A DNA stretch of 64,000 nucleotides from Medicago truncatula (taxonomy: Eukaryota; Streptophyta; Magnoliopsida; Fabales; Fabaceae), in NCBI RefSeq assembly GCF_003473485.1, contig NC_053046.1, positions 33,929,332 through 33,993,331 of the forward strand, read 5' to 3'. Positions 15,640 through 45,345 of this stretch are shown here, piece by piece; within the stretch, counting starts at the first letter, position 1, and each line of letters starts with the position of its first letter. The position numbers and the translations under genes are program-made. The notes beneath the pieces were generated by a model that was not told the DNA's origin, did not search any database, and saw only the letters and a program-made list of their open reading frames with translations.

Positions 15640-15702
15640 GATGAGGTGGACGGTTGACTTCTCTTGGATATAGTAATCGGCGATGGTGCAGTGGTCATCT
15701 AG
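15640..15702 (-). pseudogene. Remnant of a second ubiquitin repeat in the unit A 3' end
   Basis: Directly after the stop of the ubiquitin-like exon, another frame reads [20 protein letters not shown]. This resembles ubiquitin from about residue 50 to 69 ([20 protein letters not shown]). It overlaps the TAG stop in a different frame. The homologous segment sits in the same place in unit B, so the remnant predates the A/B duplication and suggests a polyubiquitin source. Confidence 0.65.
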
Positions 15703-16949
15703 TCCCCGATGACACGGAGAATGAGGTGAATGGTTGACTTATCTTGGATGATGTAATCGGCAAGGATCCGGCCGTCCTCTAGTTGTTTACCAGCAAAGAT
15801 CAAACGTTGGTCGTACACTGGGGTCTTTTCCTCGTCAACAATCTTCTCCTTCACATTTTCTATGGTGTCCAAACTATTAACCCTCAGGAGGATACACTTT
15901 CTAGTTATGCCCCTTGTGAAAATTCGCAACTGCATTGCAATTGCCAACACATCAATCAATGATTAAAGCAACATAAAGAAAACAAAACCCCTTGCAAAAT
16001 TTATGACGGTACAACAGGGAAAAATAAATTCAAGATCAAATCAAATAAAAGAATTCAAGAACTGATACAAAAATACAAAACCGTAACAACCTTTTTTCGC
16101 AGTTGAAAAAATGATGAATTTCAGATAAACACTAGAGTATAAATTCAAAACATAAAGGAAAAAAAATAGACTTTAATATGAAGAAAAAAAAAAACAAAGC
16201 TAAGAACAGAAAAGGAGATAGTAGGTAGGTACCATGGGGGTTATGGATGCTATGCAAATTTCTAGCTTCAGAGGTTCAGAAGAACCAAATGGAATCACAA
16301 GGAACTCTGATGAAAGATTTGCTGAAGTAACACGTTGGAAATCCTTACCAAAAGACTGTAATTTCAGTTTGCACATCTCAGACCTAGCCAATATATCATA
16401 ACTATATTCAGACTCGTAAAAGTTTGGACCAATGCCGCAAATATTGACTGCATTTCCCATTTGCATAGTTTTATTACTGAGATCAAATAGTTTGCCATAA
16501 CCCGCCTCTTGAAAAACAATGGTTTGATCGTTAGACTTCAAGGAGACAATGAAGGAATGACCATAAAAAAATTTGATTTGAGTATCCCTTTGTTTATTGC
16601 TGAAATGCTTATACAGCACTTCTGATGATGCAACAAAGTGACAACTTGGAACAGGGCAGTAACATGGCGCATGGATGCATTCTTTTTCATGCCTCCTCTT
16701 TCCAATGTAACTTATTTTCTCATTGCAACCATGTTTTGCATTCGGACATGACATTTCAATAGATAGCAATAGATTCTCAGCGGCTTTACAATGTTTTGAG
16801 CTAATGGGCAACGAGCAATTGTGACACTTGTTTCTAAGTTTAGTACTGCAGGTAGAGCAAACAATATGACCATTATCACACTGAATTGCAACATAAAAGA
16901 AAATCATCAAGTTAGACTTTGAACCATTTACTAAAATAAAATAAGACAT
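15699..16949 (-). pseudogene. SINA-type E3 ligase with C-terminal ubiquitin-like domain, unit A (exon 1 lost)
   Basis: The large exon (16880-16233, 216 codons) starts CDNGHIVCSTC and carries the second half of a RING, a SIAH-type zinc-finger region (CPNAKHGCNEKISYIG, HEKECIHAPCYCPVPSC) and the substrate-binding-like region. After a 303-bp intron it joins in phase 0 to 15929-15699. That exon encodes exactly 76 residues, with [14 protein letters not shown] identical to ubiquitin and about 60% identity overall. Lys11, 27, 29 and 48 and Ile44 are kept. Gly76 is Asp, so it cannot be conjugated as ubiquitin is. The first RING exon seen in unit B is absent: the flanking sequence is joined directly at about 17432, deleting it. 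The last His of the SIAH finger is also replaced (HFSNKQ against HFSDKH in B). An upstream in-frame ATG exists at 16949, inside former intron 1. Probably non-functional as a RING ligase. Confidence 0.7.
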
Positions 16950-19895: not shown

Positions 19896-19960
19896 GACGA
19901 TGCGGTGGATGGTTGACTACTCTTGGATGTAGTAACAGGCGATGATGTGGTGGTCATTTA
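19896..19960 (-). pseudogene. Remnant of a second ubiquitin repeat in the unit B 3' end
   Basis: Immediately after the stop of the unit B ubiquitin-like exon, another frame reads LNDHHIIACYYIQE, stop, STIHR. It aligns with ubiquitin residues about 50-69 and with the equivalent remnant after unit A. Confidence 0.6.
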
Positions 19961-21757
19961 GTCAAACATAATACGGTAATGGAGGAAAATTTGCATAGTT
20001 GATTTCTCTTGGATGTTGTAACTGGCAAGGGTTTGGTGGTTCTCTAGTTGCTTACTAGCAAAGTCCAGACGCTGCTCGTGCACCGGGATCCCTTCCTTGT
20101 CCTGAATCTTCTTCTTCACATCGAGTATTGTGTCTGAACTCTTAACCATTAGAGGGAACCTCTTGTTTTCATACATGATGTCTATGAATATTTGCATCTG
20201 CACCGCAATTGCCAACACATTAATCAGTGATTAAAGCAACAGAAATAGATTAAAACCCCTTGCAAAATGTATTGCAGCACAACAGGTTAAAAGAATCCAA
20301 CATAAAATCAATAAAAGAAAATTTGAGACTGATACAAAAATAGAAAACACTAACAACCTATTTTCGCATTTGAAAAACTGTTGAATTTCAGATATAATGC
20401 CGGAGTATAAATTCAAAACATAAAAGAAAATAATAAGACTTAATACAACGAAAAACAACAAATCAAACGAAAGGAGATAGGAGGTACCATGGGGTTTATG
20501 CAAGTTATGCAAATTTCTAGCTTGAGAGCTTCAAAAGAACCAAATGGAATCACAAGCAACTCCGACGAAAGAGTTGCTAATACAACCGATTGGACATTCT
20601 TCGCGAAAGACTGTAATTTCAAGTTGCACATCTGAGACCTAACCAATATATCGTAACTACATTCAGACTCGAAAGAGTTTGGACCAATACAGCAAATATT
20701 GATAGCATTTCCCAAAAGCGTAGCTCTATTATTGAGAATAAATAGTTTGCCATAACTTTCCTCTTGAAAAACAATGGTTTCATCCTTAGACTTCAAGGAG
20801 ACATTGAAGGAGTCACCATAAGAAAATTTGATTTGAGAATCCTTGTGTTTATCGCTGAAATGCTTAGACAACACTTCGGATGATGCAACAAAGCCACAAC
20901 TTGAAATAGGACAGTAACAGGGCACATGGATGCATTCTTTTTCATGATTCCTCTTTCTGATGTAACTAATTTTCTTGTTGCAACCATATTTTGCATTCGG
21001 ACATGACATTTCAAGAGATACCAATAGATTCTCAATGGCTTTACAATGTTTGGAGCTAGTGGGCAATGAGCACTTGTAACACTTGTTTCCAAGTTTAGGA
21101 CAGCAGGTAGAGCAAACAATATGACCATTGTCACACTGCATTGCAACAAAAAAGAAAACAATCAAATTATACAATGAACCATTTGCTAGAATAAAATAAA
21201 ATAAAATAGGACATTTCTATGTAAAGGCTTGTTAGCAAGCCATGCAATTAAAAGTATAACCAACATATAGTTAATCATTCTCAATTTATTCTTCTCAAAA
21301 TCAATGAACTCAATGACAGACTGTGGCTGGAAGCCGAAAAAGAAAATGCCTTTGAATCAAGAGGAAAATTTCAAAACAGCAACTAATGTAATATTGCTCA
21401 AACTTTCAAAATGTTTAAGGGTCACTTGCATATGTTCCCTTTTTATTTATTTTCTTCAATTCCAACAAACTATAGAGCTACAACTTTTTACATCAAAAAA
21501 GTACAACAACAAAGATTTCATAGATTTATCATAGATAATCACCGTTTAAACAACAAAAGAAAAACTTCTCAAAGGAACAACCAAGTATCCTTCAGCATGC
21601 AACATTGTTCAACAAAAGAAAAACTTCTCAAATGAAATTTGCACCAAAAAAAGAAAAAATAAAATAAAATGCATACCTGGGAGACGGGAATTGTTAAGGG
21701 TTCGCAACAATTGCAGCAAACAAGCAAATCTGGGACGGAAACTATCACAGGCTCCAT
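19958..21757 (-). CDS. SINA-type RING E3 ligase fused to a ubiquitin-like domain, unit B (complete)
   Basis: Three exons in phase 0: 21757-21677 (27 codons), 21135-20488 (216 codons) and 20197-19958 (79 residues plus stop), giving 322 residues. Exon 1 ends PLTIPVSQ and exon 2 opens CDNGHIVCSTC, together making a full RING: Cys14, Cys17, Cys28, His32, Cys35, Cys38, Cys46, Cys49. A SIAH-type zinc-finger region follows (CPNAKYGCNKKISYIR, HEKECIHVPCYCPISSC, KHFSDKH). Exon 3 starts MQIF and carries QDKEGIP and LASYNIQEKST as in ubiquitin. The diglycine tail is missing (ends HYRIMFD) and Ile44 of the binding patch is Asp. SINA proteins are ubiquitin ligases that bind substrates through the C-terminal region. 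A ubiquitin-like tail is not usual for them. An upstream in-frame ATG at 21769 would add MKGV. Reading on past exon 2 without splicing gives only a short tail. The fusion is inferred from splice sites, so transcript support is the open point. Confidence 0.75.
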
Positions 21758-22250: not shown

Positions 22251-23004
22251 TGGTGTGTTTGGTTGTGAAAAGAAAGTGTGAAGGGAGAAAAAAGTGAGAA
22301 AGAGTTTGAAAAGAGAGAAATAGATGAGAAATAGAGTAGATTTGATATATTGTTTGGTATATGAGAAGAAAGAGAGAAATAGAAGAGAGAGAAGTGTGTT
22401 TAATTTTTGAAAAGACTAAAATATTCTCGTATTAAAAAACTAATACAATTTATTATCTTAGTAATTTAATTTTATATATAAATTAATGCAGTTTTTTATT
22501 CTAATTTAATTAAGAAATTGAATTGATTATTTTTACACAGAAATTAGACTACTTCTTGATTAATTGTTTAAAATAGTTTAACGTAGTCAATCAATTAAAC
22601 CAATTCATTACAATAGTTTTATCCAAAAAAAAAATACTAGATTATCACGCTATTTATTTTCATTAATCGTATGTTTTTTTTTTCTTTTAAGATTATTTGT
22701 TATTTGGTCATAAAATAAAAAATAAAAGAAAAACTGTTATTTAGCATTAGCCTTTCAAAAGTAACAAGATGGTCTATGTCACTGTTATCTAAGCAAGGGC
22801 GAAATTGAGAAATATCCAAAATAACAACAGCTCCTGCCCTTTCTTCGCTTACATGGAGAGAAAGAATATTGATGTGGGACCCACTGATTTGTGATCTCTC
22901 TCCCCTATTTCTTCTCTCACCAAACAGCTTTGATAGGACACTTATCTCCTTTCTCTCTCCCTTCAACTCCTCTCCTCTCATCTTCTCCTCAACCAAACAG
23001 CCCC
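22251..23004. mobile_element. PIF/Harbinger-like MITE, 754 bp
   Basis: Left end tggtgtgtttggttg and right end caaccaaacagcccc are inverted copies and are flanked on both sides by TAA, the usual Harbinger target. The homologous flank of unit A (ctaaaagaaaaatttg near 18357) lacks the element, giving an empty-site comparison. The interior has TC- and GA-rich arms. Open frames at 22700-22996 and 22869-23210 lie in or across it and are not genes. The start of the 7,977-bp duplicated block falls inside it at about 22675. Confidence 0.75.
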
Positions 23005-23230
23005 TAAAAGAAAATTTTAAAAGTAGTTCAACGAAGATTTATATAGTATATTATACATACCATGTTATTTTAAAGAAAAATATTTCCTCTCTTTACTTTG
23101 GTTTACATTATAAGTCTACAATATGCCAAATCATAATCTTGAACTCCATAGATGAGAGTAAGGAGTTTTCATGTTTTGTCATCAAAGACTCAAACGAATT
23201 GTATTCATAAATCTAAGACTTATCATCTCT

Positions 23231-24017
23231 AAAACCCCGATACTCCAAAAATAATGAAGAATCGTGTCCGACACATATCTGATACTGATACGCTCTGATA
23301 CGTCTCGATACGCATATCAGTTAATATTTATTTCTTTGAAAAAAAATGACTGATACGTGTCAGATACGGCTAACTTACTTGTACTTCGACACGGCTAACT
23401 TATACTCTGATACCGATACTATTGTCTTACATATTTCCTTTTAAGAAAAAGAATAATAAAATAATAAGAAATAAAACTACAAGTCTGGCAACGCTATCAA
23501 AAACATATTGTCTCTTCTAACCCCAAAATATAGGGTTTCTCGTCACCACATAGCGATAGCTATTCCATCTTCTACCCATTACTTATGATTGAATTCTACT
23601 AAGTTTCTCCTCCCTCTAATGTTATGTTTCTTCTGTTCTTCTCTCTAATTGGGAAAAAGCTGTTTGTTTTTTTTATCTAAATTAGTGTTAACTATTAAGT
23701 AGTCAACATTAGACAAAGGTGTTCTCTTTTTTTTTTTTTATATGGTACTTATGATGGTCTCTTTGGATGGTACTAATGATGTTCAACTATATTCTATCTA
23801 ATTTGTGCGAAAAAAAATATGTAATTGTCACTTCTTTTGATTATTTTTATTAATGTGAAAGTTTGTTTAATATCATTTTTAGTTATGTTTATACACTACA
23901 CATTTATACTGTTAATTTTAAATTTAATTTTTTAATAATGTATCGTATCGGGAATTTTGAAATTTTTTACGTATCGGTATCATATCATATACGTATTGTG
24001 TCAGGTATCGGGGTTTC
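23231..24017. mobile_element. Inverted-repeat element with aaaccccgata ends
   Basis: The left end aaaccccgatactcc and right end ggtatcggggttt are inverted. The inner arms contain repeated gatacg/cgtatc motifs on both sides. No transposase is seen, so it is a non-autonomous DNA element or old palindromic repeat. Copy 2 lies at about 31208-31995. Confidence 0.5.
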
Positions 24018-24123
24018 ATAACTTAAGATGTAATGCCTCTACATTTATACTAGCTACGACACTATTCGAACTAAAATTAGTTACAAGTTGCAACTAACTT
24101 TTAAAACTGTATTAGAAAACAAT

Positions 24124-24420
24124 TACTCCATTCGTTCCATAATAAGTGAGTCTTTTGTAAAAAAAATTGTCCTGAAATGATCGACTTATTTTACTTTTCA
24201 ATACAATATTAATTATTTTTTCGATTATAACTCTAATAAATATTACTTTTACCAGTCTCAATTCAATATATTATACTTTGCATTTATAATAATAAGAAAT
24301 GCATAAACATTTAACAAGACACTCAAAATCATTTTTCTTTCTCTTTCATTTATACACTTTTTTTTTAACATGTGTTGAATAAACAAAATACTCACTTATG
24401 GTAAGACGGAGGGAGGAGTA
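24124..24420. mobile_element. Stowaway-like MITE
   Basis: The left end tactccattcgttccataa and right end ttatggtaagacggagggaggagta are inverted, with TA borders, total 297 bp. It sits in the LTR-like flank of a Copia remnant. The second copy of the duplicated block has it at 32101-32396. Confidence 0.75.
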
Positions 24421-24482
24421 ATCAACCACTACCAACAAACTTGTCCATCGTGCTACTTCTACTGATCAACTCTTCCTTCTCA

Positions 24483-24604
24483 ACCTTACGGTAAATATCC
24501 CCCTCAAGTTGGAATAGTTGTCACTTGTCGGCAGTCCAAGCTTGTTGCACAAGGCATTGAATGGATGCGGTTGCAATGATTTTGTCATAATATCTATAAG
24601 TTGT
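24483..24604 (-). pseudogene. Copia polymerase 3' end (RNase H tail) remnant
   Basis: On the minus strand the sequence reads QLIDIMTKSLQPHPFNALCNKLGL, split here as QLIDIMTKSLQ and NALCNKLGL, followed by a purine-rich aacttgagggggat tract. This is the typical end of Copia RNase H followed by the polypurine tract before the LTR. Only about 40 codons remain. Confidence 0.65.
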
Positions 24605-24615
24605 CACTTTTGGTC

Positions 24616-24795
24616 TTTTTAGTTTTACATAATTTCTAAGTTAATCCTTTAAGTTTCGAAAGTTTCAATTATGTTCTTTTAGTTTTACAAAATTCTCAAG
24701 TTAGTCCTTTAAGTTTCAAAAGTTTCAAATAGGTCATTTTAGTTTGACAGAATTCCTAAGTTAGTCCTTTAAGTTTCAAAAGTTTCAAACTAAAT
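24616..24795. repeat. Three 60-bp tandem repeats
   Basis: Units share tttagttttac, aagttagtcctttaagttt and aaagtttcaa at a 60-bp period. The same array is at about 32593-32772 in the second block copy. Confidence 0.8.
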
Positions 24796-24969
24796 GGACT
24801 TATTTGAAACTTTTAAAACGGTGACACTGAAATAGTTTATCAACTAAAAAGAATCACTAATTAAGTGTCTAATAACGATGACATTATACACTTCAAGACA
24901 AAACAACACAAGAACAATAGTCAAATCCTTAATACTCCTTAAGTTATCGATATCGTATGATCTCTCTGT

Positions 24970-25420
24970 AATACGGTTGACTGCTCTTGGATGTTGTAAT
25001 CGGCAAGGGTCCAATCGTCCTCAAGTTGCTTACTGGCAAAGAATATATATTGTTCGTGCACTAGGATCTTTTCCTCGTCAAAAATCTTCTCCTTCACACT
25101 GATTATATTGTGTATGAACTATTAACCCTCAAGGGGATATTCTTTCTAGTCATGGTCATTATGAAAATTTGCATCTGCATCGCAATTGCCAACACATTAA
25201 TCAATGGTAAAAGCAACAGAAAGAAAACACTACAACCGTTATCACACTGAATTGCAACAAAAAAGAAACTCATCAAATTAGACGTTGAACCATTTGCTAG
25301 AATAAAATATAATAAGAAACTCATCAAATTAGTCACAATTTATTCTTCTCAAAATCTATGTACTCAATGACAGATTGTGTCCGGAAGCCAAAATGCTATA
25401 GCAGTATAGCTGGTAGAAGT
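24970..25420 (-). pseudogene. SINA-ubiquitin-like gene remnant with large internal deletion (unit C, part 1)
   Basis: The ubiquitin-like exon starts at 25174 (MQIFIMTMTRKN) and meets a stop at 25103 where ubiquitin has its DTI turn. The rest, VKEKIFDEEK to LADYNIQEQST, continues in another frame down to about 24970. About 60 bp upstream, at 25246-25236, only the first codons of the RING exon (CDNG) survive before intron 1-like sequence. Nearly the whole RING/zinc-finger exon has therefore been deleted. Non-functional. Confidence 0.7.
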
Positions 25421-26340
25421 AGAAGTATGGCCGCTATATCAAAACTTGGGGAAACAATACAAGAAGTTCATACCATACACATATAAAAGCTCAAAAATAG
25501 AAATTCACAATTATTAATCCAATTTCAATGTTGCTAATATCCAAACCCAATGTAAAGCAAATAAGTCTGAACTTCCAAGACTTAAAAGAACTCATCTAAT
25601 CATTTATAACAAACAAAAGTGATTCCTTAAATAGAATCACCATCTCTAACCACTAATTCAGCATCATCATGCTCACTCTCTTTATTTCCAGACCTCGTTT
25701 GTCATGCATTTATCTCCGTTCTTTTCTGCTGCCTACAAAGCTGCATATGATGAATGGGGCAAATAATTTTGTTTTTTGGAAGAATTTGGCTCCTCCGAAG
25801 TAAGAAAATCAAGCGTCTTAATTTAAAAACTCTTGATTGTTATGAAGCACCTCTAGCATCCATCCTTAATGTTCTATTATTGGTTGATAATATTTACTTT
25901 ACCCTCTAAAGTAAATTACTTGTTAAGAGTCTCTCACATTTGGATGAGATAAAGCCTCAATGTGAGTATATGAGTCGGGGAATTCGTCGTCTTACAGACC
26001 AATTTTGTAAGATTGAGTTAGGCCCAACCCAAATTCTAAGATAGTACTAGCGTTTATTCAAAATTAAATCAGGCCACCAACTATCAGTCACTCAGGTCAC
26101 GCTCTAAATGTTCAATTCTGGACTTGTGGTGCTACAGCCACACTACTCAAAACCACAACACATCGGTGTTAAATGATATGAATTTGTTTAAAATGTTTTG
26201 GTTGATGTGGAAAGGAATACAATTTAGATCAAATACAACATGTTATGGTGGATGTAACAATTAGGGGTGTAAGAAGTAATAAATATAGTTGCCATTTTGG
26301 AGCCATGCTTCGGATCATTGAATTACATTGCCTGAGGACT
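25421..26340. other. Intergenic insert between two SINA fragments
   Basis: About 0.9 kb without homology to units A or B and without a recognisable domain. It separates the ubiquitin-like remnant from the truncated SINA exon. Repeated at about 33398-34317. Confidence 0.5.
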
Positions 26341-26367
26341 CTAAGTCACTGACTCTTTTCAATTAAA

Positions 26368-27380
26368 TCAAACTCTACTGCAGGAGTCACTGCACCTATC
26401 TGTGAGAATTACTATAAAAGAAGAACCAAATGGAATCAAAAGGAACTCTGAGGAAGGAGTTGCGAACGCAACACGTTGAACATCCTTTGCAAAAGACTGC
26501 AATTTCAGTTTGCACATCTGAGACCTAGCCAATATATAATATCTATATTCAGACTCGAAAGAGTTTGGACCAATACAGCAAATATTGATAGCATTTCCCA
26601 AAAGTGTAGCTCTATTATAGAGAATAAATAGTTTGCCATAAGTTTCCTCTTGAAAAACAATGGTTTCATCATTAGACTTGATGTAGACAATTAAGGAGTG
26701 ACCATAAGAAAATTTGATATGAGAATCCCCGTGTTTATCGCTGAAATGCTTAGACAACACTTCTGATGATGCAACAAAGTCACAGCTTGAAACAGGGCAG
26801 CAACATGGCACATGGATGCATTCTTCTTCATGCTTCCTCTTTCCAATGCAACTTATTTTCTCATTGCAACCATGATTTACATTCGGACATGACATTTCAA
26901 TAGATAGCAATAGATTCTCAATGGCTTTACAACGTTTTGAGCTAATACGCAACGAGCACTTGTGACGCTTGTTCCCAAGTTTAGGATAGCAGGTAGAGCA
27001 AAAAATATGACCATTATCACACTGTAGTGCAACATAAAAGAAAATAATCAAATTAGACTAAGAACCATTTGCTAGAATAAAATAAAACATATGTTCCCGT
27101 TTTCTTTATTTTCTTCAATTCCAACAAACTATAGAGCTACAACTTTTTACATTAAAAAAGGTACAACAATAAAGAATTCATAGATTCATTCGAAGGAACA
27201 ACCAAGTATCCTTCAGCATGCAACATTTTTAACATAAAAAACATTCGAAAATTTGCAAATGACAAAAATAACTTGTTAAAAAGAAAATGAGATGCATACC
27301 TGAAAGACGGGAATAGTTAAGGGCTGAGAACAATTGCAGCAATCAAGCAATTTTGGGTTGGAATACATCAGATGATCCAT
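26368..27380 (-). pseudogene. SINA-type RING protein lacking the ubiquitin-like exon (unit C, part 2)
   Basis: Exon 1 (27380-27300, 27 codons, ending PLTIPVFQ) and exon 2 (from 27021) follow the unit B layout. RING Cys46 is Arg here (GNKRHKC against GNKCYKC in B), so one zinc ligand is missing. The SIAH zinc-finger region is otherwise kept. The substrate-binding region runs to IPFGSS and is then replaced by a foreign tail (FIVILTDRCSD) ending at 26368, losing the last 15 or so residues and the splice donor to the ubiquitin-like exon. Probably a pseudogene. An identical copy is at 34345-35357. Confidence 0.7.
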
Positions 27381-28407
27381 TACACCTTTTCACTAATCAA
27401 ATCAAAGTTTATTAGAAAAACCATTAAAACTTTCTTATATAATCAAAATCATGTTTTTGACTAAAAAAATAATCAAGTTGTTCTAGTAAAAAAATAATCT
27501 AGTTGCTGCTACAAATATCATTTAACAAAAACACTCACAGAGAAAATGTAGAGTCCAGGTGCTTCATGCATGTGTTACTATCGATGGTTTTAGCCTCTAC
27601 CGATTCCTTTCCTCCGTTTTAAAGCCAATGACACGCATAGCAAAAATGTGTTAATTAATGTGCATCTTTTCCAATTCTATTTACTACTACTATTATTATT
27701 TTTTGGTACATGTGCATCTATTTGTATTCCTTTTATTTTTGACGGATCATATTCTATTAATGTTAAGATAAGATTTTTTTTTTTTGGTGAAGAAAAAATA
27801 TTCTATAATGTTAAGATAAGATGATAATTAGAGTCAAACACTGAATATATCTGCAAAGATAAAAAAAAAATGGATCAGGTAGAAACGTGCGCTATAGTCT
27901 ATATATAGAGTACGGGAACAAACAAAGTTCGTTTCATTTAATATAGCTAAGAAAATTTTGGAAGTGGTTCAATGAAGATTTGTATAGGAAAATGCTAACA
28001 AGTGTTTTTAAGTATACGGTTAATCAATCAAATATAGTAGTATTTATATTGAAAGTTGCGTAGTCAATGAATCGAGTTTAAAATTATGACATTTTCAACT
28101 TAAAATTTTCTCTTTTAAGATACTGGTTAGCAAAACTCTTAGAACTTGTGTATTTTATGTGAAAAATACATAATTTTTTAATAGATGATTGTTGTTTTCA
28201 ATAAAAAGTTAATTATTTTTATTTGTTTTAACGTGTGCAGCATTACATGTGTGAGACAAACCCATAGAAAAATATTTCCTCTCTTTACTTTGGTTTACGT
28301 TTAAGTCTATGAATATGCGAAATCATAAGCTTGAACTACATTGTTGAGAGTGGAGTTTTCATGTTATCAAAGACTCACATGAATTGTATTCATAGATCTA
28401 AAAGACT

Positions 28408-28538
28408 TACTCCCTCCAAAATGTAATATAAATAAAAAATAGTAATTGAAAAGTTGAGGTACGAGAAGTAAATATTTAACCGCATATACATTAACATTTC
28501 AAAACCATTTTTGTTTATATTTCATTCTAGAGGAAGTA
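28408..28538. mobile_element. Stowaway-like MITE
   Basis: The left end tactccctccaaaatgtaat and right end tttcattctagaggaagta are imperfect inverted copies. Second block copy at about 36386-36516. Confidence 0.55.
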
Positions 28539-28570
28539 CAATGTAATGACTCTACCATTTATACTAGCAA

Positions 28571-28782
28571 GGAGGTGCGTTGTCGTCATTCCTTTATCTA
28601 ATAGTGGCGGAAAGCTTCAATATGTTGATGAGGAGGGCAATGGAGGAGGGAAAATTGACAGTATACAGATTTGACATGGAGGAAGACATGTTCACAAACT
28701 TACAATATGCCAACGATACATTGATTATTCGTGAGAAAAAGTGGTCAAATATCAGAATCATCAAGGTAAATTTGCTTCTATT
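28571..28782 (+). pseudogene. LINE reverse transcriptase fragment
   Basis: The frame reads LSSFLYLIVAESFNMLMRRA, then DMFTNLQYANDTLII. This matches the LINE motif around the catalytic YADD box, here YAND with one catalytic Asp replaced. It stops where the CACTA element begins. In the second block copy the missing half resumes at 40939 after the transposon. Confidence 0.75.
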
Positions 28783-29652
28783 CACTACCACAATTTTGGC
28801 TTTTAATAGCATTATTTTAATAGCGTTTCTGGATAAATGCTATTAAAAATGCAACTCATAAACCTGTTATAGCACTTTTCAGAAAGCGCTAAGGAAAACT
28901 TGTTAAAAATTGGGTTAGATAGCGCTTTTCCTGAAACGCTATTATTATTGTTTGCATTAATAGCGCTTTTTCCGAAACACTATTGTTGGAGGGGGTATAG
29001 ATAGCGCTTGTCACAAACGCTATGTTTGGGCTTATTAAATTAAAAAAGGCAGATTAACACTTTCTCTCTCCAACATTGGGATTCAAAGTCAGAACGCTTT
29101 CTACCGTCCTTCTCCTAAATCAAAACCACCTTCTTCTCCATTGCATCAGTGAAAATCTAAACCCAAAACCATCTTCTTGCTTTGGTCTAAATCGAAGTCA
29201 GAGTCACTCTCTCTCTCACAATCGACGTCGGAATCGAAGTCATTCCGTGGTAAGTTTTTCTCTTTCGATTTTTTCGTTTCATAGCTTCCTCAAAATCGCT
29301 CAATGTTTGTTTTTGTGTTGCAGTTCAAGTTCAGCTCTTCCTTTGAAGAGAACGTCAGCAAGTTAGCTCAAGATCTCTACCCAGGTTGTATGAAAATCGA
29401 AACCCCTCAATTTTTTTAGTTTTTTATTTTATTTCTCTGATTTTTATTTTATTGGGTTTCTTGTGAAATGCTGAAAAATTGTTTCTGTTAAATCGAAAGC
29501 CCTTAATTTTGATTGTCATCTGTTTTTATTTTTAAAAATTTACATTTTTTTTTATGAGATTTATAATGTGTGGTTTATGTGTGTTTGATTGTTTGTTTTA
29601 CTTTGTTGTGAAATTTTGGTTTCCAATGATTATTTCTCAAGTGATTTATTAC

Positions 29653-29861
29653 TCTGTTTGGATAAACATAATATTTACAGCTTATCAAGATAAGTAAGCC
29701 CTTATGTATAAGCTTACTTAAGCTTTTTATGTAGTAAAAAATAAATTATGTTAAATTGTTTTTTCATTTGTCATAACTCATAAGCTGTTTTCATTAATTC
29801 TCCCAAAGGGTATCATAAAATTTATGCCAGTAGGAAAGCTTAAATAAGCCAATTCAAACAG
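29653..29861. mobile_element. Small MITE nested in the CACTA element
   Basis: The left end ctgtttggataaac and right end ccaattcaaacag are inverted. Inner agcttac and aagctt motifs also pair. Second copy at about 37631-37838. Confidence 0.5.
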
Positions 29862-30271
29862 TCCTATACACAGTGATGGACTTTTCAGATTTTCATCACA
29901 ATCTCAATAAATTTTGTCTTTTAATAATCACTTTAGAGAACACCAACCCTTAACAGTCCTAACAATAATGTCTTACTATGAGAGATGATAAAATATATTA
30001 TTAACCCTTGAAATAATTATTATGTTCTCATATTAAGTGGTTCATGAGCTAAAGGGCCAATATGTAAATGACAGACATGCTTTAGAAAATAATGAACACA
30101 CACTCATAAGTGTAAATCATTGTTTGAAAAATAATAATATAGTGATCTTTGAAGCCTTGAACTTGTTATGTATTTGGTTGTATGTGTGTGAAGGAATCTG
30201 TGAATGAATTAAGGTACTGTAATAGTAGAAAGTAAAAAGAGACTAAGCTATAATAACTAAATCATCAATGC

Positions 30272-30520
30272 TTAATTCATTGTTTTCTTCATAATCATGC
30301 AAGTACAATATATAAACTTGTTATAACAGAATGGGAAGCATGTGCACAATACATGGTAATTGCGTGACTCATCCCTAGCAACTACAAGTGACTCATCATC
30401 TAGATCTTTCCTCTTACTCTTTGAGCCAACTCTTTTCTTAGTTGTTACATAATCATTGAGATACTTGGCCCTGTTGTGATTCCTCTTGGCCCGCACCTGA
30501 GGTTCTATTTCAACCTCCTC
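30272..30520 (-). pseudogene. Possible Copia-type polyprotein scrap
   Basis: The minus strand reads VEIEPQVRAKRNHNRAKYL then NDYVTTKKR. This resembles the basic spacer ahead of Copia reverse transcriptase (pattern R-x-R-x2-P-x-YL-x-DYV). Too short to be sure. Repeated at 38249-38497. Confidence 0.3.
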
Positions 30521-32100
30521 ACATGGGTCATTTTGGTCCCTAACAGAACTCCAACCCCAACAGTAATGATGAAAAAGCTATTATAGAAAATTTAGGCAAA
30601 ATTTAGCTAAACACAACTTGCTTGATGTGACTGTTAGCTAGTCTAACATACTTTTTTTTTCTTTTAAGATTATTTGTTATTTGGTCATAAAATAAAAAAT
30701 AAAAGAAAAACTGTTATTTAGCATTAGCCTTTCAAAAGTAACAAGATGGTCTATGTCACTGTTATCTAAGCAAGGGCGAAATTGAGAAATATCCAAAATA
30801 ACAACAGCTCCTGCCCTTTCTTCGCTTACATGGAGAGAAAGAATATTGATGTGGGACCCACTGATTTGTGATCTCTCTCCCCTATTTCTTCTCTCACCAA
30901 ACAGCTTTGATAGGACACTTATCTCCTTTCTCTCTCCCTTCAACTCCTCTCCTCTCATCTTCTCCTCAACCAAACAGCCCCTAAAAGAAAATTTTAAAAG
31001 TAGTTCAACGAAGATTTATATAGTATATTATACATACCATGTTATTTTAAAGAAAAATATTTCCTCTCTTTACTTTGGTTTACATTATAAGTCTACAATA
31101 TGCCAAATCATAATCTTGAACTCCATAGATGAGAGTAAGGAGTTTTCATGTTTTGTCATCAAAGACTCAAACGAATTGTATTCATAAATCTAAGACTTAT
31201 CATCTCTAAAACCCCGATACTCCAAAAATAATGAAGAATCGTGTCCGACACATATCTGATACTGATACGCTCTGATACGTCTCGATACGCATATCAGTTA
31301 ATATTTATTTCTTTGAAAAAAAATGACTGATACGTGTCAGATACGGCTAACTTACTTGTACTTCGACACGGCTAACTTATACTCTGATACCGATACTATT
31401 GTCTTACATATTTCCTTTTAAGAAAAAGAATAATAAAATAATAAGAAATAAAACTACAAGTCTGGCAACGCTATCAAAAACATATTGTCTCTTCTAACCC
31501 CAAAATATAGGGTTTCTCGTCACCACATAGCGATAGCTATTCCATCTTCTACCCATTACTTATGATTGAATTCTACTAAGTTTCTCCTCCCTCTAATGTT
31601 ATGTTTCTTCTGTTCTTCTCTCTAATTGGGAAAAAGCTGTTTGTTTTTTTTATCTAAATTAGTGTTAACTATTAAGTAGTCAACATTAGACAAAGGTGTT
31701 CTCTTTTTTTTTTTTTTATATGGTACTTATGATGGTCTCTTTGGATGGTACTAATGATGTTCAACTATATTCTATCTAATTTGTGCGAAAAAAAATATGT
31801 AATTGTCACTTCTTTTGATTATTTTTATTAATGTGAAAGTTTGTTTAATATCATTTTTAGTTATGTTTATACACTACACATTTATACTGTTAATTTTAAA
31901 TTTAATTTTTTAATAATGTATCGTATCGGGAATTTTGAAATTTTTTACGTATCGGTATCATATCATATACGTATTGTGTCAGGTATCGGGGTTTCATAAC
32001 TTAAGATGTAATGCCTCTACATTTATACTAGCTACGACACTATTCGAACTAAAATTAGTTACAAGTTGCAACTAACTTTTAAAACTGTATTAGAAAACAA

Positions 32101-32396
32101 TTACTCCATTCGTTCCATAATAAGTGAGTCTTTTGTAAAAAAAATTGTCCTGAAATGATCGACTTATTTTACTTTTCAATACAATATTAATTATTTTTTC
32201 GATTATAACTCTAATAAATATTACTTTTACCAGTCTCAATTCAATATATTATACTTTGCATTTATAATAATAAGAAATGCATAAACATTTAACAAGACAC
32301 TCAAAATCATTTTTCTTTCTCTTTCATTTATACACTTTTTTTTAACATGTGTTGAATAAACAAAATACTCACTTATGGTAAGACGGAGGGAGGAGT
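32101..32396. mobile_element. Stowaway-like MITE (block copy 2)
   Basis: Same as 24124-24420, with one T fewer in an internal homopolymer. Confidence 0.75.
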
Positions 32397-32459
32397 AATC
32401 AACCACTACCAACAAACTTGTCCATCGTGCTACTTCTACTGATCAACTCTTCCTTCTCA

Positions 32460-32581
32460 ACCTTACGGTAAATATCCCCCTCAAGTTGGAATAGTTGTCA
32501 CTTGTCGGCAGTCCAAGCTTGTTGCACAAGGCATTGAATGGATGCGGTTGCAATGATTTTGTCATAATATCTATAAGTTGT
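32460..32581 (-). pseudogene. Copia RNase H tail remnant (block copy 2)
   Basis: Copy of 24483-24604. Confidence 0.65.
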
Positions 32582-32946
32582 CACTTTTGGTCTTTTTAGT
32601 TTTACATAATTTCTAAGTTAATCCTTTAAGTTTCGAAAGTTTCAATTATGTTCTTTTAGTTTTACAAAATTCTCAAGTTAGTCCTTTAAGTTTCAAAAGT
32701 TTCAAATAGGTCATTTTAGTTTGACAGAATTCCTAAGTTAGTCCTTTAAGTTTCAAAAGTTTCAAACTAAATGGACTTATTTGAAACTTTTAAAACGGTG
32801 ACACTGAAATAGTTTATCAACTAAAAAGAATCACTAATTAAGTGTCTAATAACGATGACATTATACACTTCAAGACAAAACAACACAAGAACAATAGTCA
32901 AATCCTTAATACTCCTTAAGTTATCGATATCGTATGATCTCTCTGT

Positions 32947-33397
32947 AATACGGTTGACTGCTCTTGGATGTTGTAATCGGCAAGGGTCCAATCGTCCTCA
33001 AGTTGCTTACTGGCAAAGAATATATATTGTTCGTGCACTAGGATCTTTTCCTCGTCAAAAATCTTCTCCTTCACACTGATTATATTGTGTATGAACTATT
33101 AACCCTCAAGGGGATATTCTTTCTAGTCATGGTCATTATGAAAATTTGCATCTGCATCGCAATTGCCAACACATTAATCAATGGTAAAAGCAACAGAAAG
33201 AAAACACTACAACCGTTATCACACTGAATTGCAACAAAAAAGAAACTCATCAAATTAGACGTTGAACCATTTGCTAGAATAAAATATAATAAGAAACTCA
33301 TCAAATTAGTCACAATTTATTCTTCTCAAAATCTATGTACTCAATGACAGATTGTGTCCGGAAGCCAAAATGCTATAGCAGTATAGCTGGTAGAAGT
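32947..33397 (-). pseudogene. SINA-ubiquitin-like remnant (block copy 2)
   Basis: Copy of 24970-25420, with the same early stop in the ubiquitin-like exon (33080) and the same deletion. Confidence 0.7.
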
Positions 33398-34344
33398 AGA
33401 AGTATGGCCGCTATATCAAAACTTGGGGAAACAATACAAGAAGTTCATACCATACACATATAAAAGCTCAAAAATAGAAATTCACAATTATTAATCCAAT
33501 TTCAATGTTGCTAATATCCAAACCCAATGTAAAGCAAATAAGTCTGAACTTCCAAGACTTAAAAGAACTCATCTAATCATTTATAACAAACAAAAGTGAT
33601 TCCTTAAATAGAATCACCATCTCTAACCACTAATTCAGCATCATCATGCTCACTCTCTTTATTTCCAGACCTCGTTTGTCATGCATTTATCTCCGTTCTT
33701 TTCTGCTGCCTACAAAGCTGCATATGATGAATGGGGCAAATAATTTTGTTTTTTGGAAGAATTTGGCTCCTCCGAAGTAAGAAAATCAAGCGTCTTAATT
33801 TAAAAACTCTTGATTGTTATGAAGCACCTCTAGCATCCATCCTTAATGTTCTATTATTGGTTGATAATATTTACTTTACCCTCTAAAGTAAATTACTTGT
33901 TAAGAGTCTCTCACATTTGGATGAGATAAAGCCTCAATGTGAGTATATGAGTCGGGGAATTCGTCGTCTTACAGACCAATTTTGTAAGATTGAGTTAGGC
34001 CCAACCCAAATTCTAAGATAGTACTAGCGTTTATTCAAAATTAAATCAGGCCACCAACTATCAGTCACTCAGGTCACGCTCTAAATGTTCAATTCTGGAC
34101 TTGTGGTGCTACAGCCACACTACTCAAAACCACAACACATCGGTGTTAAATGATATGAATTTGTTTAAAATGTTTTGGTTGATGTGGAAAGGAATACAAT
34201 TTAGATCAAATACAACATGTTATGGTGGATGTAACAATTAGGGGTGTAAGAAGTAATAAATATAGTTGCCATTTTGGAGCCATGCTTCGGATCATTGAAT
34301 TACATTGCCTGAGGACTCTAAGTCACTGACTCTTTTCAATTAAA

Positions 34345-35357
34345 TCAAACTCTACTGCAGGAGTCACTGCACCTATCTGTGAGAATTACTATAAAAGAAG
34401 AACCAAATGGAATCAAAAGGAACTCTGAGGAAGGAGTTGCGAACGCAACACGTTGAACATCCTTTGCAAAAGACTGCAATTTCAGTTTGCACATCTGAGA
34501 CCTAGCCAATATATAATATCTATATTCAGACTCGAAAGAGTTTGGACCAATACAGCAAATATTGATAGCATTTCCCAAAAGTGTAGCTCTATTATAGAGA
34601 ATAAATAGTTTGCCATAAGTTTCCTCTTGAAAAACAATGGTTTCATCATTAGACTTGATGTAGACAATTAAGGAGTGACCATAAGAAAATTTGATATGAG
34701 AATCCCCGTGTTTATCGCTGAAATGCTTAGACAACACTTCTGATGATGCAACAAAGTCACAGCTTGAAACAGGGCAGCAACATGGCACATGGATGCATTC
34801 TTCTTCATGCTTCCTCTTTCCAATGCAACTTATTTTCTCATTGCAACCATGATTTACATTCGGACATGACATTTCAATAGATAGCAATAGATTCTCAATG
34901 GCTTTACAACGTTTTGAGCTAATACGCAACGAGCACTTGTGACGCTTGTTCCCAAGTTTAGGATAGCAGGTAGAGCAAAAAATATGACCATTATCACACT
35001 GTAGTGCAACATAAAAGAAAATAATCAAATTAGACTAAGAACCATTTGCTAGAATAAAATAAAACATATGTTCCCGTTTTCTTTATTTTCTTCAATTCCA
35101 ACAAACTATAGAGCTACAACTTTTTACATTAAAAAAGGTACAACAATAAAGAATTCATAGATTCATTCGAAGGAACAACCAAGTATCCTTCAGCATGCAA
35201 CATTTTTAACATAAAAAACATTCGAAAATTTGCAAATGACAAAAATAACTTGTTAAAAAGAAAATGAGATGCATACCTGAAAGACGGGAATAGTTAAGGG
35301 CTGAGAACAATTGCAGCAATCAAGCAATTTTGGGTTGGAATACATCAGATGATCCAT
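34345..35357 (-). pseudogene. SINA-type RING protein lacking the ubiquitin-like exon (block copy 2)
   Basis: Copy of 26368-27380 (exons 35357-35277 and 34998-34345), with the same Cys46-to-Arg loss in the RING and the same replaced C terminus. Confidence 0.7.
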
Positions 35358-36557
35358 TACACCTTTTCACTAATCAAATCAAAGTTTATTAGAAAAACCA
35401 TTAAAACTTTCTTATATAATCAAAATCATGTTTTTGACTAAAAAAATAATCAAGTTGTTCTAGTAAAAAAATAATCTAGTTGCTGCTACAAATATCATTT
35501 AACAAAAACACTCACAGAGAAAATGTAGAGTCCAGGTGCTTCATGCATGTGTTACTATCGATGGTTTTAGCCTCTACCGATTCCTTTCCTCCGTTTTAAA
35601 GCCAATGACACGCATAGCAAAAATGTGTTAATTAATGTGCATCTTTTCCAATTCTATTTACTACTACTATTATTATTTTTTTGGTACATGTGCATCTATT
35701 TGTATTCCTTTTATTTTTGACGGATCATATTCTATTAATGTTAAGATAAGATTTTTTTTTTTTGGTGAAGAAAAAATATTCTATAATGTTAAGATAAGAT
35801 GATAATTAGAGTCAAACACTGAATATATCTGCAAAGATAAAAAAAAAATGGATCAGGTAGAAACGTGCGCTATAGTCTATATATAGAGTACGGGAACAAA
35901 CAAAGTTCGTTTCATTTAATATAGCTAAGAAAATTTTGGAAGTGGTTCAATGAAGATTTGTATAGGAAAATGCTAACAAGTGTTTTTAAGTATACGGTTA
36001 ATCAATCAAATATAGTAGTATTTATATTGAAAGTTGCGTAGTCAATGAATCGAGTTTAAAATTATGACATTTTCAACTTAAAATTTTCTCTTTTAAGATA
36101 CTGGTTAGCAAAACTCTTAGAACTTGTGTATTTTATGTGAAAAATACATAATTTTTTAATAGATGATTGTTGTTTTCAATAAAAAGTTAATTATTTTTAT
36201 TTGTTTTAACGTGTGCAGCATTACATGTGTGAGACAAACCCATAGAAAAATATTTCCTCTCTTTACTTTGGTTTACGTTTAAGTCTATGAATATGCGAAA
36301 TCATAAGCTTGAACTACATTGTTGAGAGTGGAGTTTTCATGTTATCAAAGACTCACATGAATTGTATTCATAGATCTAAAAGACTTACTCCCTCCAAAAT
36401 GTAATATAAATAAAAAATAGTAATTGAAAAGTTGAGGTACGAGAAGTAAATATTTAACCGCATATACATTAACATTTCAAAACCATTTTTGTTTATATTT
36501 CATTCTAGAGGAAGTACAATGTAATGACTCTACCATTTATACTAGCAAGGAGGTGCG

Positions 36558-36760
36558 TTGTCGTCATTCCTTTATCTAATAGTGGCGGAAAGCTTCAATA
36601 TGTTGATGAGGAGGGCAATGGAGGAGGGAAAATTGACAGTATACAGATTTGACATGGAGGAAGACATGTTCACAAACTTACAATATGCCAACGATACATT
36701 GATTATTCGTGAGAAAAAGTGGTCAAATATCAGAATCATCAAGGTAAATTTGCTTCTATT
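36558..36760 (+). pseudogene. LINE reverse transcriptase fragment (block copy 2)
   Basis: Copy of the 28571-28782 fragment. Here the full CACTA insertion follows and the LINE frame resumes at 40939. Removing the transposon and one ATT restores an open LLLFEVISGL reading across the site. Confidence 0.75.
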
Positions 36761-38794
36761 CACTACCACAATTTTGGCTTTTAATAGCATTATTTTAATA
36801 GCGTTTCTGGATAAATGCTATTAAAAATGCAACTCATAAACCTGTTATAGCACTTTTCAGAAAGCGCTAAGGAAAACTTGTTAAAAATTGGGTTAGATAG
36901 CGCTTTTCCTGAAACGCTATTATTATTGTTTGCATTAATAGCGCTTTTTCCGAAACACTATTGTTGGAGGGGGTATAGATAGCGCTTGTCACAAACGCTA
37001 TGTTTGGGCTTATTAAATTAAAAAAGGCAGATTAACACTTTCTCTCTCCAACATTGGGATTCAAAGTCAGAACGCTTTCTACCGTCCTTCTCCTAAATCA
37101 AAACCACCTTCTTCTCCATTGCATCAGTGAAAATCTAAACCCAAAACCATCTTCTTGCTTTGGTCTAAATCGAAGTCAGAGTCACTCTCTCTCTCACAAT
37201 CGACGTCGGAATCGAAGTCATTCCGTGGTAAGTTTTTCTCTTTCGATTTTTTCGTTTCATAGCTTCCTCAAAATCGCTCAATGTTTGTTTTTGTGTTGCA
37301 GTTCAAGTTCAGCTCTTCCTTTGAAGAGAACGTCAGCAAGTTAGCTCAAGATCTCTACCCAGGTTGTATGAAAATCGAAACCCCTCAATTTTTTTAGTTT
37401 TTTATTTTATTTCTCTGATTTTTATTTTATTGGGTTTCTTGTGAAATGCTGAAAAATTGTTTCTGTTAAATCGAAAGCCCTTAATTTTGATTGTCATCTG
37501 TTTTTATTTTTAAAAATTTACATTTTTTTTATGAGATTTATAATGTGTGGTTTATGTGTGTTTGATTGTTTGTTTTACTTTGTTGTGAAATTTTGGTTTC
37601 CAATGATTATTTCTCAAGTGATTTATTACTCTGTTTGGATAAACATAATATTTACAGCTTATCAAGATAAGTAAGCCCTTATGTATAAGCTTACTTAAGC
37701 TTTTTATGTAGTAAAAAATAAATTATGTTAAATTGTTTTTTCATTTGTCATAACTCATAAGCTGTTTTCATTAATTCTCCCAAAGGGTATCATAAAATTT
37801 ATGCCAGTAGGAAAGCTTAAATAAGCCAATTCAAACAGTCCTATACACAGTGATGGACTTTTCAGATTTTCATCACAATCTCAATAAATTTTGTCTTTTA
37901 ATAATCACTTTAGAGAACACCAACCCTTAACAGTCCTAACAATAATGTCTTACTATGAGAGATGATAAAATATATTATTAACCCTTGAAATAATTATTAT
38001 GTTCTCATATTAAGTGGTTCATGAGCTAAAGGGCCAATATGTAAATGACAGACATGCTTTAGAAAATAATGAACACACACTCATAAGTGTAAATCATTGT
38101 TTGAAAAATAATAATATAGTGATCTTTGAAGCCTTGAACTTGTTATGTATTTGGTTGTATGTGTGTGAAGGAATCTGTGAATGAATTAAGGTACTGTAAT
38201 AGTAGAAAGTAAAAAGAGACTAAGCTATAATAACTAAATCATCAATGCTTAATTCATTGTTTTCTTCATAATCATGCAAGTACAATATATAAACTTGTTA
38301 TAACAGAATGGGAAGCATGTGCACAATACATGGTAATTGCGTGACTCATCCCTAGCAACTACAAGTGACTCATCATCTAGATCTTTCCTCTTACTCTTTG
38401 AGCCAACTCTTTTCTTAGTTGTTACATAATCATTGAGATACTTGGCCCTGTTGTGATTCCTCTTGGCCCGCACCTGAGGTTCTATTTCAACCTCCTCACA
38501 TGGGTCATTTTGGTCCCTAACAGAACTCCAACCCCAACAGTAATGATGAAAAAGCTATTATAGAAAATTTAGGCAAAATTTAGCTAAACACAACTTGCTT
38601 GATGTGACTGTTAGCTAGTCTAACATACTTAATTCTATAGAAAATTTAGCTATGTGTAACAGTTAATATGTGTAGAACTGGATGAGAAACCTGATTTCGT
38701 CCAAAAAATTGATTGTGATATTAAATCATTTTCAGTCCGAAATTCCCGATTTAATATCTCAACGATCTCTATCTCTAAATATTCATGAGATTTC

Positions 38795-44340: not shown

Positions 44341-45345
44341 AAAGCTTTGTTGCCCTAATTTTAACCTAATATTTTAGCAATTTTTCCCTCCATCAAAACC
44401 TAACCATATTTCCTAATTTCCCTCCTCCAAACCCTAACTATGATTTCCTAACTTCACTCCTCCTAAAACCTATCTAATTGATTTCCATAAACCATATCTC
44501 CTAACTCTCCTCCTCCAAACCCTCACCAATATATTTTAATCCTTTCTCCTAAACCGAGATCTCTTTTTAAAACCATACCTTTCACTTAAACCGAAATTTC
44601 TACCTATCTAATTGATTTCGATAAACCATATTTCCTAACTCCCCTCCTCCAAACCCTCACCAATATATTTTAATCCTTTCTCCTAAACCGAAATCTCTTT
44701 TTAAAACCATACCTTTCTCTTAAACCGAAATTTCTACCTATCTAATTGATTTCGATAAACCATGTTTCCTAACTCCCCTCCTCCAAACCCTCACCAATAT
44801 ATTTTAATCATTTATCCTAAACCGAAATCTCTTTTTAAATCCATACCTTTCACTTAAACCGAAATTTCTACCTATCTAATTGATTTCGATAAACCATATT
44901 TCCTAACTCCCCTCCTCCAAACCCTCACCAATATATTTTAATCATTTCTCCTAAACCGAAATCTCTTTTTAAAACCGTACCTTTCTCTTAAACTGAAATT
45001 TCTACCTATCTAATTGATTTCGATAAACCATATTTCCTAACTCCCCTCCTCCAAACCCTCACCAATATATTTTAATCCTTTCTCCTAAACCGAAATCTCT
45101 TTTTAAAACCATACATATTTCCCTAAAAAATTATAGCCATTTTCCCTCCTTCAAAACCTAACCATATTTCCTAATTCTCCTCCTCCAAACCCTAACTATG
45201 ATTTCCTAATTTCCCTCCTCCTAAAACCTAATTCCCCTCCTTCAAAACCTAACCATATTTCCTAATTCCCCTCCTCCAAACCCTAACCATGATTTCCTAA
45301 TTTCCCTCCTCCTAAAACCTATCTAATTGATTTCCATATTTTCTG
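44340..45345. repeat. 134-bp tandem repeat array with related short flanking repeats
   Basis: The motif cctatctaattgattt recurs at 44469, 44603, 44737, 44871 and 45005, exactly 134 bp apart. The unit contains ccctcctccaaaccctcacc, aatatattttaatc and ttaaaccgaaatttcta. About 4.8 copies run to about 45116. On both sides, shorter relatives (ccctcctccaaaccctaac with ccatatttcctaatt) form a looser array. No coding potential is seen. Confidence 0.85.

Follow-up and report, generated by a model that had tools for sequence, protein, structure and literature searches.

SINA ligases have attracted interest for their part in regulating growth, stress and nodulation in plants. In plant SINA and SINA-like E3 proteins, which are of the SIAH type, a C3HC4 RING is followed by SIAH-type zinc fingers with conserved ligands and then by a substrate region. 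The gene described here, from Medicago truncatula, follows the same order, but in its family a ubiquitin-like exon comes after the substrate region. One account of the SINA family gives its members an N-terminal RING and a C-terminal SINA domain (PMC7393226). The main text of one paper on plant SINA proteins has no terms for an extra domain or a fusion (PMC10734943), and that of another has no ubiquitin-like terms (PMC6118397). None of the titles and opening abstract lines listed in literature searches, most of them narrow, concerned a SINA-ubiquitin fusion, and the architecture may already be present in UniProt or InterPro.

A RING ligase that carries a fixed ubiquitin-like domain (UBL) is found in UHRF1. 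The arrangement of that protein is UBL, Tudor/PHD, SRA and RING, with the UBL at the N-terminus. The UHRF1 ubiquitin-like domain is described as binding a regulatory partner (PMC9464978). UHRF1 combines UBL, SRA and RING with no SIAH part and is not homologous, as a fusion, to the protein described here, in which Pfam does not find the UBL, Tudor/PHD, SRA, RING order. In RBR ligases of the Parkin and HOIL-1 type, an intramolecular N-terminal UBL regulates activity. These too are E3 proteins with an intramolecular UBL, but the resemblance is in working principle only, their catalytic type being RBR and their UBL being N-terminal where the tail of the present protein is C-terminal. Polyubiquitin genes are the other point of comparison. 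The tails of the family are ubiquitin-like, begin at Met1 in 12 of 14 intact copies and have an intron AG at that codon, as polyubiquitin genes do; they differ in being a single unit placed behind an E3, with R74 and G76 lost in all 14.

A SINA-like gene with a predicted ubiquitin-like last exon

The window, meaning the whole stretch of 64,000 nucleotides that was analysed, covers positions 33,929,332-33,993,331 of NC_053046.1, a contig of 44.8 Mb, and the genome searched comprises 430 Mb in 42 contigs. On the minus strand of the window, three exons join into one open frame of 322 residues plus a stop, in the order RING, SIAH zinc finger, substrate region and ubiquitin-like tail (the focus gene, or unit B). 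Exon 1 (21677-21757) encodes 27 amino acids from an ATG at 21755-21757, holds the first two RING ligands (C-x2-C) and is recognised by its open frame and its donor, CAG/GTATGCAT. After intron 1 (21136-21676; 541 nt, phase 0; GTATGCAT...CAATGCAG), exon 2 (20488-21135; 216 amino acids) supplies the remaining RING, a SIAH-type double zinc finger and the SINA substrate-binding region, an assignment based on a Pfam Sina_ZnF match above cut-off, on the RING and zinc-finger ligands and on SIAH1/2 matches in the PDB. Intron 2 (20198-20487; 290 nt, phase 0; GTACCTCC...CGGTGCAG) lies between the substrate region and the tail, and its borders, CCCATG/GTACCTCC and CGGTGCAG/ATGCAAATA, are common to the family. 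Exon 3 (19958-20197) encodes the 79-residue tail, with the stop at 19958-19960. Both introns are of the GT...AG type, and the predicted splicing follows from conserved sites and reading frames. An earlier note on this DNA had read the unit as three phase-0 exons with an intact frame and good splice borders, and it is confirmed in this, as it is in its claim of all eight RING ligands, two of which lie in exon 1 and six in exon 2.

In Pfam searches, the spliced protein matches ubiquitin (PF00240) at 68.1 bits against a cut-off of 25.4, which bears out the 79-residue ubiquitin-like domain of the earlier note and gives the tail the sequence signature of a ubiquitin fold; it also matches the SIAH-type zinc finger Sina_ZnF (PF21361) at 39.1 bits (cut-off 32). 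Sina_RING reaches 25.9 bits, under its cut-off of 29.3, and the Sina TRAF-like model gives no match at E<=1 in the same protein, and the ligase half is therefore a divergent SINA-like one. Its substrate region aligns over its length with that of an untailed SINA-like locus, L027. Apart from one sub-threshold Plexin_RBD match, Pfam finds only ubiquitin- and SINA-related families in the spliced protein. The RING has the eight ligands of the C3HC4 type, the six of exon 2 being invariant in 14/14 intact family members, and the zinc-finger ligands are kept in the family with single exceptions in two relatives (L018 and L036a). Among solved sequences in the PDB, SIAH1 and SIAH2 are nearest to the SINA part, and single ubiquitin chains match the focus tail at E ~4e-19, which, with the same arrangement at 19 of 22 loci, places the tail far beyond chance. 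A model of the tail (two window sequences) has the order strand-strand-helix-strand at low confidence (pLDDT 54.3). Judged from its sequence, the gene appears to have a real E3-type architecture, with putative ligase activity and a tail of putative function.

The family in the genome and in the window

A search of the genome with the focus exon-2 protein gave 34 rows, and the clade was defined as the loci with at least 58% identity to focus exon 2. It comprises 22 SINA-like loci, 13 of them on the contig of the window. Eleven rows were set aside, namely eight canonical SINA loci (28-37%), L027 (45%), L028 (30%) and one fragment, and one more row is the second piece of L026. Nineteen of the 22 clade loci are followed, on their own strand, by a ubiquitin-like exon, and the three tail-less ones (L029, L030 and L033) are themselves interrupted. 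No match to the tail exon was found within 5 kb of the eight canonical SINA loci, nor in the stretches of L027 and L028 that were examined, and no relative was found among the viral contigs scanned. The arrangement is thus common to a multi-locus family and is no peculiarity of unit B.

Exon 2 and the tail are both open at 14 of the 19 tailed loci, where the GTA donor, in phase 0, and the AG acceptor occupy matching positions. These 14 copies, chosen for being intact, are the ones used in the selection tests, which leave out L017, L025, L026, L034 and L035. Five of the 19 are interrupted in exon 2 or in the tail, and the tail is broken in four; the decayed remnant of a SINA part in L014, next to a tail with a frameshift, is not counted among the 22. 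For 12 of the 14 intact copies an exon 1 was located that carries half of the RING and a phase-0 donor, and it has an ATG in 10 of the 14. No in-frame ATG was seen in exon 1 of L013 and L021, and no exon 1 was found for L019 and L036a within the stretch searched.

The window holds four units, all on the minus strand, and the focus gene alone is complete. In unit A, an open SINA-like exon 2 (16233-16880) is followed by a ubiquitin-like exon (15699-15929) of 76 amino acids plus a stop, whose first codon is TTG and whose acceptor AG is kept; no exon 1 was found upstream. Unit C has an exon 1 located by tblastn (27300-27380), an exon 2 (26410-27021) whose substrate region is without its C-terminal end and in which one RING Cys has become Arg, and a decayed ubiquitin-like exon with internal stops (24972-25151). 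In unit D, exon 2 (34387-34998) is a copy of that of unit C, and it is accompanied by an exon 1 (35277-35357; tblastn) and by a decayed ubiquitin-like exon with internal stops (32949-33128). Units C and D, both broken, lie one each in two head-to-tail copies of ~7.98 kb (22675-30653 and 30652-38630) that are 99.95% identical, a pair that is due to duplication in the very recent past or else to the assembly. Elsewhere in the window are a CCTCCTCCAAAACCTAACC-like tandem array at 44383-45321, with units of 34-35 nt and of 134 nt (the 134-mer in 4.8 copies at 96%), and two facing tRNA genes at 57369-57440 (+) and 57513-57586 (-), ~70 nt apart.

Residues, selection and possible roles of the tail

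The focus tail is identical to ubiquitin of the same genome at 43 of 76 positions, and the 14 tails are identical at 40-54 of 74-76. Gly75 is kept in 11 of the 14, and a C-terminal Gly-Gly in none. Ubiquitin chemistry is such that, without this Gly-Gly, a domain is neither conjugated nor cleaved as ubiquitin is. The tails are therefore fixed domains, with the features of a fixed UBL and not of a conjugatable (type I) modifier, and a conjugatable or cleavable ubiquitin tail can be rejected on the loss of G76 in all copies. Lys27 and Arg72 are kept in every tail, Arg42 in 13, and Ile44 and Lys48 in 11 each. In the focus tail, Asp stands in the place of Ile44 and Met at position 8, and the last strand is altered and contains an insert of two residues. 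The Asp makes classical receptor binding by the focus tail doubtful, and the functional options of the earlier note, which had proposed binding to the enzyme's own surface, recruitment of ubiquitin-binding partners or the proteasome, or a decoy, fit only in part: receptor recruitment via the Ile44 patch is unlikely for the focus protein itself. From the residues kept, the Ile44 face could serve in most copies, and in the focus copy probably not in the usual way.

The reading we prefer, with a probability of about 0.6, is that of a SINA-like RING ligase with a captured ubiquitin unit as its last exon, the tail being a fixed docking module. This module would most likely sit beside the RING and the substrate domain, where the kept core, Arg42 and Arg72 and, in most copies, Ile44 would hold the fold and contact an E2, an E2-ubiquitin or a receptor. 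The fast-changing loops would tune the partner, and binding to an E2 may activate the ligase. In the focus copy, with its altered Ile44 patch, the tail probably either makes contact through a different face or no longer makes the ancestral one. A whole branch of SINA proteins with a fixed ubiquitin fold would be a natural system in which to study the effect of an intramolecular UBL on a RING ligase.

Selection was analysed with codon models in our own implementation, not PAML. Pairwise omega has a median of 0.75 in the tail (77 of 91 pairs below 1) and of 0.52 in the SINA exon (91 of 91). On the tree, omega is 0.63 for the SINA exon (2dlnL 26.9) and 0.85 for the tail over all sites, the latter not different from 1 (2dlnL 1.7, p 0.19). 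Constraint was not detected over the whole tail and appeared only when buried sites were separated, and it therefore rests on a subset of sites. The tail was split by a list of 16 ubiquitin positions taken to be buried; at these, omega is 0.30 (2dlnL 42 against omega 1), at the remaining sites it is 1.0, and random sets of 16 sites are as low in 5 of 20000 draws. Together with the multi-locus family and the matching splice sites, this purifying selection on buried fold positions supports the central claim of the earlier note, a SINA-like E3 with a fused ubiquitin-like tail. In neutral simulation a mean of 2.9 of 14 tails, and at most 8 in 300 runs, are without a stop; the observed 14 of 14 were chosen for being open, and the unselected count is 15 of 19.

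A second class of tail sites appears to evolve rapidly. M2a is preferred over M1a in the tail (2dlnL 38.7), with omega2 of 3.6 at ~14% of sites, and the maximum in 23 null simulations of this test is 3.9. Ubiquitin positions 6, 7, 9, 12, 24, 35 and 54 have a posterior above 0.9. The SINA exon and the tail give conflicting trees, each rejecting that of the other in AU tests (p 0.0002 and 0.0004), and tails or SINA parts have therefore been exchanged, or converted, between copies. The tail signal remains on the SINA topology (53.8), and a similar but weaker one is present in the SINA exon (23.9); exchange or recombination may inflate the omega>1 signal of the tail. These results also bear on a more tentative reading, in which the E3 ligases form a lineage-specific family and the tail is a permanently attached pseudo-ubiquitin whose fold is kept, whose loops are positively selected and which is swapped between copies as a variable surface for recognition or evasion in an arms race. 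Such a surface, directed for instance at proteins through which microbes act on the ubiquitin system of their host, would be no generic ubiquitin-receptor handle, and we hold this reading to be possible but unlikely.

Arg42 and Arg72 lie on the E1- and E2-facing side of ubiquitin, and Parkin is held off by its UBL. A tail that occupied its own RING or E2 in the place of the donor ubiquitin, so that the ligase is off until the tail is displaced, would account for the retention of R72 in 14/14 tails and of R42 in 13/14 though G76 is gone in all. However, the tail-only model is of low confidence (pLDDT 54) and Ile44 is lost in the focus copy, and autoinhibition of this kind appears doubtful. We give a similarly low probability to the view that the family is a decaying tandem one, with the focus gene a pseudogene or weakly expressed relic in which the tail is functionless. 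The broken tails of units C and D, the lack of a found exon 1 in unit A, the interruption of 5 of 19 tailed loci, the Asp at Ile44, the changed C-terminus and a whole-tail omega near 1 all point in that direction. Against it, the three exons, splice sites and zinc ligands of the focus gene are all intact, the buried positions are constrained across the family, and omega on the focus branch (0.51 in the SINA exon, 0.56 in the tail) is not significantly different from that of the rest.

Splice borders, orphan exons and origin of the tail

The AG acceptor directly before the tail and the phase-0 GTA donor are kept in all 14 intact copies. In two of these (L019 and L036a) the ATG of the tail is gone while the acceptor and the frame persist, which is evidence against a tail protein translated from a start of its own. 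The untailed L027 stops three residues past the part of the substrate region that it last shares with the tailed copies, at the point where these enter the splice site. This end point and the two ATG-less tails speak for an internal exon rather than for an independent gene. Tail exons also occur as orphans without a SINA part (twice each at L009 and L014, and once each at L015, L031 and L032). Several of them are open with the AG acceptor kept. In 6 of the 7, the match to the focus gene extends from the tail into intron 2 for about ten to several hundred bases, and in a tail tree without L014iii the focus tail groups with the orphans L014i, L009i and L009ii (support 100/99).

These orphans lend some weight to the view that the two features are adjacent but not fused, the SINA part ending within intron 2 by read-through (in the focus gene at ...NPMVPPISFRLICCFSLY) and the tail exon being a separate or orphan one with its own ATG. 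Intron 2 can be read in frame for a few codons, and exon 3 starts with ATG in 12 of the 14 copies; that ATG, however, is accounted for as the inherited first codon of ubiquitin, and the read-through ends vary in length and sequence between copies. Set against the acceptor and donor retained in 14/14 copies, and against L019 and L036a, where acceptor and frame outlast the ATG, the view of two separate features is quite improbable. A chance frame or gene-prediction artefact is rejected, the arrangement being present at 19 of 22 loci with splice borders common to all 14 intact copies.

For the captured ubiquitin exon of the preferred reading, a polyubiquitin gene is the proposed source. In the ancestor of the clade, the first polyubiquitin unit would have come to lie behind a SINA-like gene, with its leader-intron acceptor exactly at the ATG. 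The end of the substrate region would then have been spliced into the captured exon, leading into the ubiquitin fold via a linker of ~3-8 residues, as the anatomy of the gene and comparison between copies suggest. The terminal Gly-Gly would have been lost next, a loss that can be read directly from the tails, and the gene would have multiplied, probably with the exchange between copies to which the conflicting trees point. Among 14 ubiquitin loci examined, a subset of those detected in the genome, the first ATG is immediately preceded by AG in 11, as in the tail exon, which suggests exon capture. A first ubiquitin unit with a leader-intron acceptor at its ATG thus forms a phase-0 exon that is ready for use, in agreement with the tail exon. 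If the capture took place in this way, it would be a clear case of exon capture eased by a polyubiquitin leader intron that ends exactly at the first codon.

Leader introns of switchgrass polyubiquitin genes are described as having cag/ATG borders (PMC3161867), and the same source says that a 5' UTR intron is a common feature of the genes of this kind that have been isolated from monocots and dicots (PMC3161867). In 10 of the 11 loci above, a CAAG/GTA donor lies 461-1235 nt upstream, a donor similarity no greater than the general splice consensus would give, and two ubiquitin-ribosomal fusions, not counted here, also end in aag/ATG. Compared with 8 of the 11 leader introns, the ends of intron 2 have a mean score of 20.2, against 18.3 (sd 0.7) for resampled sequence and 18.1 for the ends of intron 1, a likeness that is weak and at most suggestive. 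Three polyubiquitin loci (L042, L044 and L052) have an apparent internal frameshift or stop in a unit.
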